Positions 6,102-61,953 of a stretch of DNA of 64,000 nucleotides are shown here, piece after piece. The notes under the pieces are model-generated. The model had not been told where the DNA came from. It made no database searches and saw only the letters and a list, made by a program, of their open reading frames with translations. Source of the DNA: Kangiella koreensis DSM 16069. GTDB taxonomy: Bacteria; Pseudomonadota; Gammaproteobacteria; Enterobacterales; Kangiellaceae. Where the stretch lies: the NCBI RefSeq assembly GCF_000024085.1, contig NC_013166.1, forward strand, positions 1,488,001-1,552,000, in the 5' to 3' direction. Position 1 is the stretch's first letter. Each line of letters begins with the position of its first letter. The position numbers and the translations under genes were made by a program.

Positions 6102-6252
6102 TGGCGGAGCGGACGGGACTATCAATTACATCCCTGTAATTGACCACTTCGTGGCCATCGTCACTTCGTTCCGATGTTCAAAATCGTTCCAGACGATTTT
6201 GTCGAACACCGCTCTCGCGGGTTCTTCGTCCCTATAAAATTGGGGGATAAAA
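6102..6252 (-). ncRNA. RtT-like repeat element downstream of tRNA-Asp
   Basis: Positions 6102-6120 (TGGCGGAGCGGACGGGACT) exactly copy the last 19 bases of tRNA-Asp, whose true end is at 6286, giving a 184-bp period. Between them is a structured segment. A hairpin at 6176-6207 has a GTTC...GAAC outer pair around AAAATCGT/ACGATTTT. A short CCGC-CGCGG stem and GGTTCTTCGTC follow. Smaller TTC-loop hairpins lie near 6145-6165. The 27 bases at 6177-6203 recur exactly near tRNA-Ser and at 61660. The architecture matches the E. coli tyrT repeats that give RtT RNA, recalled from literature. Function unknown. Confidence 0.7.
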
Positions 6253-6285: not shown

Positions 6286-6362
6286 TGGCGGAGCGGACGG
6301 GACTCGAACCCGCGACCCCCGGCGTGACAGGCCGGTATTCTAACCAGCTGAACTACCGCTCC
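6286..6362 (-). tRNA. tRNA-Asp (GTC)
   Basis: 77 nt on the minus strand. It has acceptor GGAGCGG pairing with CCGCTCC, D-arm GTTCAGCTGGTTAGAAT, anticodon loop CTGTCAC (anticodon GTC), T-loop GGGTTCGAGTCCC and an encoded CCA. Confidence 0.97.
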
Positions 6363-41151: not shown

Positions 41152-41240
41152 TGAGTCTCATCAAATCAAAACTCCATTTCTATAGAGAGCGAATAAATAC
41201 AGTTTTATAGATCTGAATTGAGTTTTCTGCAGGCAATAAA

Positions 41241-41263
41241 AAACCCCGCATAGTGCGAGGTTT
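41241..41263 (-). terminator. distal terminator after tRNA-Arg repeat unit
   Basis: AAACC-CGCA / TGCG-GGTTT stem with one mismatch and loop TAG; on the minus strand it runs into T6. It closes the transcript that includes the second copy of the tRNA-Arg 3' end. Confidence 0.75.
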
Positions 41264-41272
41264 CTTGAATAA

Positions 41273-41412
41273 TGGCGCGCGTGGAAGGATTACTGCGTCG
41301 CTACGCTCCTTGCCCTTCGGGCCGTCGTCGGCTACGCCTCCAACGTTCAAAGCACTTCGTGCTTTGTCGAACTCCTTCGGAGGTTCTCATCATTTTCTTT
41401 GATACAACGAAA
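41273..41412 (-). ncRNA. RtT-like repeat element downstream of tRNA-Arg
   Basis: Positions 41273-41291 (TGGCGCGCGTGGAAGGATT) copy the last 19 bases of tRNA-Arg exactly; six flanking bases (GAATAA) are copied too. The period to the true end (41448) is 175 bp. The segment between contains CCCTTCGGG, a GTTC-AAAGCAC-TTC-GTGCTTT-GTCGAAC hairpin at 41345-41372, a TCCTTCGGA stem and GGTTCTCATC at 41382-41391. The stem differs in sequence from those of the Asp and Ser elements but keeps its pairing, a sign of RNA-level constraint. Confidence 0.72.
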
Positions 41413-41440
41413 AAAGGCTTCCGGTTTAAGGGAAGCCTTT
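41413..41440 (-). terminator. proximal terminator of tRNA-Arg
   Basis: AAAGGCTTCC / GGAAGCCTTT stem, 7 bases after the CCA end on the minus strand, followed by T6. Confidence 0.85.
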
Positions 41441-41447
41441 CGAATAA

Positions 41448-41524
41448 TGGCGCGCGTGGAAGGATTCGAACCTCCGACCGCCTGGTTCGTAGCCAGGTAC
41501 TCTATCCAGCTGAGCTACACGCGC
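41448..41524 (-). tRNA. tRNA-Arg (ACG)
   Basis: 77 nt on the minus strand. Acceptor GCGCGTG pairs with CACGCGC, anticodon loop CTACGAA (anticodon ACG, wobble A normally edited to inosine), T-loop GGTTCGAATCC and an encoded CCA. Confidence 0.97.
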
Positions 41525-41542: not shown

Positions 41543-41570
41543 ATTATGCCACCAGACGATGATATGTCAA
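41543..41570 (-). promoter_or_regulatory. promoter of tRNA-Arg
   Basis: On the minus strand TTGACA (41565-41570), a 16-bp spacer and CATAAT (41543-41548), followed by a GC-rich ACCGCCCG discriminator. Confidence 0.8.
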
Positions 41571-52795: not shown

Positions 52796-52810
52796 GAAGA
52801 ATATTTTTTT

Positions 52811-52930
52811 GTGAGGGAGGGATTATAAAATACATCCTGTATTTTACCCTTCGGGCCAGCGTCGCTACGCTTCGCTGTTCAAAATCGTTCCAGACGATTT
52901 TGTCGAACCTAAAGGTTCTCATCCTTCCAT
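52811..52930 (-). ncRNA. RtT-like repeat element downstream of tRNA-Ser
   Basis: GTGAGGGAGGGATT (52811-52824) copies the tRNA-Ser 3' end; the last five bases of the expected 19-mer (TGGCG) are lost. The period to the true sequence (52976) is 165 bp. The segment contains TAAAATACA...TGTATTTTA, CCCTTCGGG, the GTTC...GTCGAAC hairpin at 52877-52908, a CCTAAAGG stem and GGTTCTCATC at 52914-52923. The 27 bases at 52878-52904 are identical to those near tRNA-Asp and at 61660. Confidence 0.72.
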
Positions 52931-52932
52931 CT

Positions 52933-52971
52933 GATTACTTTAATTAAGACAAATGTCTAAATTAAAGTAAT
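52933..52971 (-). repeat. long hairpin between tRNA-Ser and its repeat element
   Basis: ATTACTTTAATTAAGAC and GTCTAAATTAAAGTAAT pair almost perfectly around AAAT. It sits directly after the tRNA CCA, where the Asp and Arg loci have a GC-rich terminator, and may act in 3' processing or termination. Confidence 0.6.
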
Positions 52972-53122: not shown

Positions 53123-53338
53123 TTAATAATATTCGTTATCGTCTGATGAACCGCCTTGATAACCTTCCATTTGCTTTTCATGTTGAATGCGCAAATAGAT
53201 TTCTTCGCGGTGTACAGCGACTTCTTTAGGTGCGTTGATACCGATACGAACCTGGTTACCTTTAACGCCTAGAACAGTTACGGTGATTTCATCACCGATC
53301 ATAAGTGTCTCACCGACACGACGAGTTAAGATTAACAT
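53123..53338 (-). CDS. csrA: carbon storage regulator CsrA
   Basis: 71 residues. RNA-binding dimer that controls translation of carbon-storage, motility and biofilm mRNAs. [16 protein letters not shown] and [10 protein letters not shown], with Leu4 and Arg44 in the RNA-binding surface, are intact. Good AGGAGA ribosome site. Located between alaS and tRNA-Ser as in other gammaproteobacteria; no aspartokinase gene intervenes. The 247 bp upstream probably hold its own promoter. Confidence 0.97.
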
Positions 53339-61610: not shown

Positions 61611-61735
61611 GGATTACAAAATACATACCTGTATTTTGCCCTTTGGGCTGGCTTCGCCATTCAAAATCGTTCCAGACGATTTTGTCCGCGGTTAGCGACC
61701 GAAGGAAGTACCTTTAGGTATCGCGGGATGACAAT
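61611..61735 (-). repeat. orphan RtT-like repeat without a tRNA
   Basis: GGATTACAAAATACATAC...GTATTTTG, CCCTTTGGG, TGGCTTCGCCA and then the 27-base core (61660-61686) identical to those beside tRNA-Asp and tRNA-Ser. The order of parts is the same as at tRNA-Ser, but no tRNA gene follows and the outer GTTC/GAAC pairing has been lost (ATTC/CCGC). A decayed or transposed copy. Confidence 0.65.
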
Positions 61736-61953
61736 GATTCACTTTGACTGAATCACTATCTTACAGGCTAGTACCAATAACCCCCTTAGATTGAGCTAAA
61801 TAGAAGCCAAGTCATAGCAATTCAAATCGTGGATGATTTGAATAGTAAAATTCGAGCCAGGGACGGCACGTATTTTACGGTGCGTTAAGTGGCTTGGCGG
61901 ATATGAAGGAAGTTTCGCTTGCGAAACCTCAATCTCGAGGCGCGCTTCTTTTT

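Follow-up and report, generated by a model that had tools for sequence, protein, structure and literature searches.

The tRNA-Arg(ACG) gene of Kangiella koreensis DSM 16069 is followed by a repeat that ends in an exact copy of the tRNA's own last 19 nucleotides. Comparison across Gammaproteobacteria suggests how such a copy may arise: it was probably made when the T-loop of a partly duplicated tRNA-Arg gene, in tandem with the intact one, came to contain a hairpin module, here called M, giving an RtT-type tRNA-tail repeat. That M is found within duplicated tRNA genes, in their T, anticodon and D loops, offers a concrete and testable origin for tail copies. To our knowledge, those of the E. coli tyrT repeat have so far been without an explanation.

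The repeat downstream of tRNA-Arg

The window is a stretch of 64,000 nucleotides from the K. koreensis genome (G000), and coordinates refer to it. Read 5' to 3' on the minus strand, the Arg locus consists of the tRNA, a terminator-like hairpin, a 5' arm, a structured body and the exact tail copy. The scores below refer to R2, a model of M only that was built from 59 sequences.

41543..41570 (-), promoter-like TTGACA-16-CATAAT, 5' of tRNA-Arg; a consensus match only (1 found, 0.7 expected)
41448..41524 (-), tRNA-Arg(ACG), intact copy; tRNA gene prediction
41412..41441 (-), terminator-like hairpin T1, in the interval between tRNA-Arg and the element; a consensus match only (1 found, 0.5 expected)
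41368..41391 (-), 5' arm of the Arg element, GATGAGAACCTCCGAAGGAGTTCG: the tRNA's T-arm (GATnnGAACCTCCGA) copied in inverse orientation, then a T-arm remnant ending in TTCG; from sequence
41291..41367 (-), module M of the Arg element, ending ..GCAGTA; R2 33.4 bits, E 6e-6, with 41290-41367 among the 59 sequences from which R2 was built
41345..41372 (-), core hairpin (H2, GTTC/GAAC frame); sequence check
41273..41291 (-), 19-nt copy of tRNA-Arg nt 58-76; exact match
41237..41264 (-), terminator-like hairpin T2, 3' of the copy; read by eye and not reported by the terminator scan

A preliminary description of this DNA had reported the terminal 19-mer of tRNA-Arg and its flank to be duplicated 175 bp away, and the repeat is indeed exact. 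The 25-mer GAATAATGGCGCGCGTGGAAGGATT, which is made up of tRNA-Arg nt 58-76 (19 nt) and 6 nt of flank, occurs at 41267-41291 and at 41442-41466 with 100% identity and a spacing of 175 bp, where about 3e-13 such repeats would be expected by chance from base composition alone. The core hairpin also lies where it had been placed, and its inner stem is changed as described, reading AAAGCAC/GTGCTTT in the Arg element versus AAAATCG/CGATTTT in the elements that follow tRNA-Asp and tRNA-Ser. In the inverted 5' arm (for example 41368-41391, minus strand), GGATTCGAACC reads GGATGAGAACC, with tandem GA.

Further elements lie elsewhere in the window. For the Asp and Ser elements, the scores come from models trained on these very elements; the second model, R1, was built from 11 elements and includes the tail.

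6286..6362 (-), tRNA-Asp(GTC), intact copy; tRNA gene prediction
6102..6241 (-), Asp element, with M at 6120-6202 and a perfect 19-nt copy at 6102-6120; R1 138.6 bits, R2 70 bits
52971..53061 (-), tRNA-Ser(GCT), intact copy, with csrA upstream in the same orientation; tRNA gene prediction
52806..52934 (-), Ser element, with M at 52824-52903 and a partial copy at 52811-52824; R1 119.6 bits, R2 79 bits; Rfam RtT 37.2 bits, E 1.5e-5
53183..53338 (-), csrA (CsrA domain), PF02599 E 4.3e-26; genome position 1541183-1541338
61615..61685 (-), dispersed M module with no adjoining tRNA; R2 67.9 bits, E 5e-14, R1 47.1 bits; outside both training sets

Each tRNA carries a copy of its own 3' end, as had been claimed: the Asp copy is perfect, and the Ser copy comprises the first 14 of the 19 nt, with CGCCA lost. 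The tmRNA gene of the same genome (L064, C1:2185154-2186489) is likewise followed by an element whose terminal part reproduces the tmRNA 3' end exactly. M elements share stretches with tmRNA genes also in L239, L378 and L417. A TwoAYGGAY RNA (RF01731, 59.3 bits) lies at 61799-61905 on the plus strand, some 110 bp from the dispersed M module on the minus strand.

The fold of module M and its known relatives

M is a conserved module of about 70-100 nt with four hairpins, which begins with ACAAA in most members and mostly ends in GTA or ATA. R1 matches 18 of 20 genomes in the genus (E up to 0.01) and 113 of 295 in the order (E up to 0.001). The tail-repeat module recurs at many tRNA genes and at tmRNA, and the hairpin module is matched by R2 in 144 of the 369 genomes of a class-wide sample of Gammaproteobacteria (E up to 1e-4).

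The fold of M and of the element as a whole covaries strongly. In A3, an alignment of 142 R1 matches (116 distinct) whose fitting to R1 gives the slid and shuffled controls more weight than absolute values, 91.1% of cells are paired versus at most 39.7% with the partners slid by 1-3 columns. The compensatory stem changes proposed from the Arg element are real and general, since 39 of 40 pairs in A3 are changed on both sides. An M-only alignment of 59 modules, made with MAFFT and free of model fitting, gives 95.7% paired versus at most 46.6% when slid, with double changes in 14 of 18 pairs, and a third set of M sequences, fitted to R2, gives 96.5% versus at most 52.4% (17 of 18 pairs). Covariation by itself cannot tell an RNA fold from a DNA hairpin. 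The 91.8% pairing of the closing helix in A3 stems from the fitting of that alignment to its model. A closing stem around dispersed copies of M was rejected, as in the class sample the pairing of their flanks (-12.2 kcal/mol) stays within the range of shuffled flanks (-11.5 kcal/mol, best shuffle -12.5). The 5' arm of an element, compared in inverted orientation with the 3' half of its own tRNA, scores 12.07/16, versus 10.38 for shuffled partners and 9.49 in direct orientation (n=106).

Among known RNAs, RtT RNA (rttR) of E. coli tyrT likewise lies 3' of a tRNA, is repeated in units and has the last 19 nt of that tRNA at its end. The E. coli tyrT locus reportedly carries a 178-bp repeat present 3.14-fold. 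The RtT 5' arm (GGATGAGAACC), T-arm remnant (GGTTCGA), H3, H4 and tail can be aligned with the window elements, and in alignment A2 the E. coli tyrT/tyrV units (L012) align over their full length, including the start of the copy at A58; the E. coli unit is without the long H2 and the GGA loops of the Asp and Ser elements. The Rfam RtT model (RF00391) covers the whole Arg element at 29.3 bits, which, like the score of the Ser element, falls below the gathering cut-off of 45 bits, and relatives in L084 reach 48 bits. With a score below the cut-off and a full-length alignment to the E. coli units, the Arg element is called RtT-type only and is not a member of Rfam RtT. The set described here is also wider, covering 20 anticodons, tmRNA and tRNA-free sites. 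In Actinobacillus, members of the RtT family have been reported close to tRNA genes for Asn and Lys, and RtT sRNAs are described as being released from tRNA operon transcripts (PMC4986893); another study mentions covariation support and tandem GA for RtT RNA (PMC8250186). Among the papers listed in searches of an open-access library, at the level of titles and abstract openings, tRNA-tail repeats or T-loop insertions were not found treated as a general family.

Other likenesses are partial. AaHKsRNA22 (RF02902, described in Rfam as an Aggregatibacter sRNA) matches H2-H5 of the Arg element at 26.7 bits (E 0.004); in the elements of L087 and in one repeat unit of L089 it reaches 34.5-35.2 bits, and none of these matches attains its cut-off of 39.8 bits. 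REP/BIME sequences and repeats mobilised by RAYTs are likewise short, dispersed and palindromic in Gammaproteobacteria and occur in mosaic arrangements, and one study assigns an enterobacterial cluster similar to rtT to the BIMEs (PMC2965389). M differs from these in its four hairpins with conserved loops, its lack of GTAG, its sites in tRNA loops and its presence in genomes without a Y1 match. RNAs of the CsrB/RsmZ type also display GGA on one strand, in loops such as CAGGATG and CANGGANG; they have many such loops versus two per unit of M, which is dispersed and linked to tRNAs, and the Arg element is without GGA. TwoAYGGAY RNA has hairpins with GGA loops too, but a different architecture, and it does not overlap with the R2 matches in the window. 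A group I or group II intron was rejected, the gathering-threshold Rfam scan of the window having returned three tRNAs and TwoAYGGAY only.

Tail copies, interrupted tRNA genes and the origin of the repeat

Tail copies follow the neighbouring tRNA in other genomes. In a first sample, contigs were scanned with an H2-hairpin pattern that excludes the 19-mer, giving at least 119 loci, with 141 matches among those listed; the pattern begins with GTTCGAC and so favours T-loops, a bias of which the M-only sample is free. Among the matches listed, a same-strand tRNA lies upstream within 150 nt in 79 and within 600 nt in 99, while 42 are unlinked and include what look like chance matches in unrelated phyla. 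The 78 linked elements listed whose tRNA ends in CCA represent 20 anticodons, and their copies match the adjacent tRNA at a mean of 16.60/19 versus 11.59 for tRNAs with other anticodons, the best of 1000 permutations reaching 12.55. Perfect 19-mers number 39 among these 78, one of which (L305) is a further tRNA gene. A second sample comprised 80 places hand-picked from the R2 class matches, mostly one or two per genome, and yielded 96 matches after exclusion of two duplicate loci, 34 of them with a tRNA within 600 nt upstream; for the 31 elements with a tRNA within 150 nt ending in CCA, the means are 17.06 for the own tRNA versus 11.46 for others (best permutation 13.23). The 155 distinct R1 matches divide into 73 with a same-strand upstream tRNA in the stretch, 38 of these with a perfect 19-mer, and 82 without; since the tail is part of R1 and biases this set, tracking was assessed without it.

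Decaying copies keep mainly the T-stem side and lose the acceptor part. Among imperfect copies from both samples, identity is 0.71-0.91 at nt 63-68 and 0.31-0.57 at nt 69-76, a profile drawn from the 35 of 52 copies in which nt 58-62 are intact, the 17 without this 5-nt anchor being excluded.

At a number of loci M is found within a tRNA gene. It interrupts the T-loop of a near-complete tRNA copy beside an intact one at tRNA-Ser(CGA) in L344 and tRNA-Ser(GGA) in L375, and further T-loops with an intact copy adjoining are interrupted at tRNA-Gln(TTG) in L416, tRNA-Val in L300 and tRNA-Lys in L201. The anticodon loop is the site in tRNA-Ser(CGA) of L363 and L403, the latter with three tandem units, and the D-loop in a Ser-like tRNA of L348, with two units and an intact copy truncated where the contig ends. 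The sequence on either side of M corresponds to the intact copy in L344, L375, L363, L300 and L201, where insertion is clean after TCG and no target-site duplication was found, one A being assignable to either side. One base after M is altered in L403, and the right side is altered in L416, which has GGACTGCC instead of ATCCTGCC. In five pairs the 5' parts of the interrupted and intact copies are identical (72/72, 72/72, 36/36, 36/36 and 57/57). Taken together, the clean junctions and the identical 5' parts indicate that what follows M is the remainder of the tRNA itself. Decayed interrupted copies were recognised by eye in L199, L225, L232, L244, L256, L266 and L286. In the class sample, TCG directly precedes M in 11 of 11 matches internal to a tRNA (labelled by eye, from eight loci, of which L380 is degenerate), in 26 of 33 linked to a tRNA and in 5 of 50 others.

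The sequences flanking the two copies are informative as well. For 59 flank pairs in which the copy is perfect, with tandem arrays counted, the sequence 3' of the tRNA aligns with that 3' of the copy at a mean score of 35.3, versus 12.5 for shuffled pairs (maximum 15.0); 21 of the 59 score 40 or more, and the duplicated flank is often a terminator. This resemblance is consistent with local duplication. In the window the flanks score 46 at the Asp locus and 13 at the Arg locus, where they are alike only across TTATTC.

By this route M, which lies between TTCG and A58, would occupy the T-loop of a partial tRNA-Arg duplicate, and the distal 19-mer would be the tRNA's own nt 58-76 lying beyond the point of insertion. 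The intact upstream gene would survive because nt 58-76, and often the following terminator too, are present twice, and the form seen in Kangiella and E. coli would be an interrupted duplicate that has lost its 5' part. M presumably moved in as one unit, with duplication and insertion forming a single event, and unequal recombination between the 19-mers may later have reshuffled the tandem units. Such reshuffling is suggested by the Arg locus of another Kangiella genome, G019, where the two terminators stand in opposite order around the units.

Several observations do not fit this account easily. The Arg flanks are unlike beyond TTATTC, so that the duplication is not directly visible at the Arg locus and reshuffling must be assumed; among the loci compared, no clean pair of empty and filled Arg sites differing by M alone was found. 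The inverted 5' arm is not accounted for by simple insertion, and 45 of 50 tRNA-free copies of M are not preceded by TCG.

The element could instead be a functional RNA of tRNA operons in the sense of RtT, in which case the 3'-end duplicate would be retained because RNA processing or folding requires it, and selection or gene conversion would correct it locally. The strong covariation in all three alignments agrees with this, as does the annotation of E. coli rttR as a small RNA, and the better preservation of the T-stem part in imperfect copies would be expected if that part closes the fold; covariation alone, however, does not distinguish it from a DNA hairpin, and at the Arg locus hairpin T1 stands between the tRNA and the element. 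Most tRNA-Arg loci of the genus, moreover, lack the element or have it in decayed form. Among 20 genomes, the exact 19-mer copy is present in 2, nt 58-65 only in 6, and neither within 500 nt in 12; of 30 Asp gene loci, 6 have an exact copy, 1 only nt 58-65 and 23 neither, the element-bearing Asp genes of G008 and G009, both with full copies, lying outside this count. A functional RNA of this kind is on balance unlikely. The proposal in the preliminary description that the copy is made or corrected locally stands in so far as copies track the adjacent tRNA far above chance, but precise correction of the whole 3' end as a function does not hold, given the exact Arg copy in 2 of 20 genomes and the poorly kept acceptor part of imperfect copies.

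At orthologous loci of the genus the element may be intact, decayed or absent, and the order of units differs between G000 and G019. A second repeated insert, with hairpins ..GCTCCTGCAATTCTGG.. and ..CCGCCATCCATGGCGG.., was seen by eye to split the Arg tail copy after or near AATCCTTC in L158, L160, L161, L165, L167 and L174, and similarly in L171 and L175.

Integrases commonly use tRNA 3' ends and leave a displaced 3' fragment. The 19-mers might accordingly be read as attL and attR, left by a since-lost integrative element with an integrase acting at the tRNA T-loop; the repeat boundary does fall in that loop. This is very improbable: one small module occurs at many sites, the roughly 150 nt between the Arg repeats are too short for an integrase gene, insertions also occur in anticodon and D loops, where it is the 5' side that is duplicated, and many specificities would be needed to explain tracking at 20 anticodons.

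GGA loops and the mobility of M

The last hairpin of M, H5, has the loop consensus CA(N)GGANG, which is CANGGANG-like in most members and not in the Arg element. GGA is present in this loop in 53 of 59 M modules and in 88 of 91 in the M-only class sample; the search pattern of the first sample contains the GGA of H2 and not that of H5. The H5 stem columns 91-93/102-104 are nearly random (0.04-0.35 bit) yet covarying, and loop positions 95 and 97-99 are conserved (1.5-2.0 bit). In 149 distinct elements, predicted hairpin loops bearing GGA number 224 on the element strand versus 6 on the reverse strand. Within the window, the Asp and Ser elements have GGA in hairpin loops and the Arg element does not.

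From these features it is conceivable, though far from assured, that M RNA is a GGA-hairpin decoy bound by CsrA/RsmA, and that tRNA operons carrying M make small CsrA sponges. Members with GGA loops, which include the Asp and Ser elements and not the Arg element, may be bound in this way. The loops CAGGATG and CANGGANG agree with the repeat of CsrB, CAGGA(U/A/C)G, and with RUACARGGAUGU, the consensus from CsrA SELEX (PMC7652899). The frequency of GGA in H5 and its strand bias also speak for a decoy, as does the position of csrA in the window, upstream of tRNA-Ser(GCT) on the same strand with 121 nt from the CsrA domain to a tRNA that itself has an M element. Against it, both loops are without GGA in the Arg element and, in alignment A5, in the E. 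coli unit, and the H5 loop is without it in L195, L217, L225 and L234. No CsrA is seen in 14 of 144 M-bearing genomes, several of them incomplete, and its co-occurrence with M is weak (odds ratio 2.1, p 0.025, uncorrected for phylogeny). It also counts against a decoy that the models were trained on related sequences. Should CsrA indeed recognise the GGA loops, stable-RNA operons would be linked to a global regulator.

The clean insertion of M directly behind a short fixed target, the lack of target-site duplication and the hairpins near both ends are reminiscent of Y1-type transposition. A Y1 (RAYT/IS200-type) transposase might mobilise M, which would then be non-autonomous; this is rather doubtful. 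The junctions without target-site duplication agree with it, and Y1 genes are found in 109 of 144 M-bearing genomes versus 131 of 225 others (odds ratio 2.2, p 0.0008), with more element matches in genomes with Y1 within the genus (p 0.003), although these statistics are uncorrected for genome size or phylogeny. However, no match to PF01797 (Y1) was found in G000, the genome of the window, 35 of the 144 M-bearing genomes are likewise without one, and the stretches surrounding four Y1 genes gave no R1 match. Many known REPs begin with GTAG and M does not; neither this nor a similar REP tag was found at the foot of its hairpins.

A more far-reaching proposal, which is to be regarded as speculative and rather improbable as a whole, is that M is a class-wide mobile RNA-hairpin module. 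It would insert precisely at TCG^A in tRNA T, anticodon and D loops, settle beside tmRNA and survive through local tRNA duplication, its two GGA hairpins recruiting CsrA. Stable-RNA operons, the csrA-tRNA-Ser unit among them, would in this way come to act as small sponges for CsrA, and RtT of E. coli would represent a decayed form of the module.

Within the genus, element matches overlap on opposite strands, as head-to-head dispersed copies, in L026/L041, L074, L075, L077, L078, L080 and L082. In two genomes (G545 and G421), near-identical copies of M with common flanks occur in L345, L346, L352 and L353, where larger mosaics seem to have been amplified.
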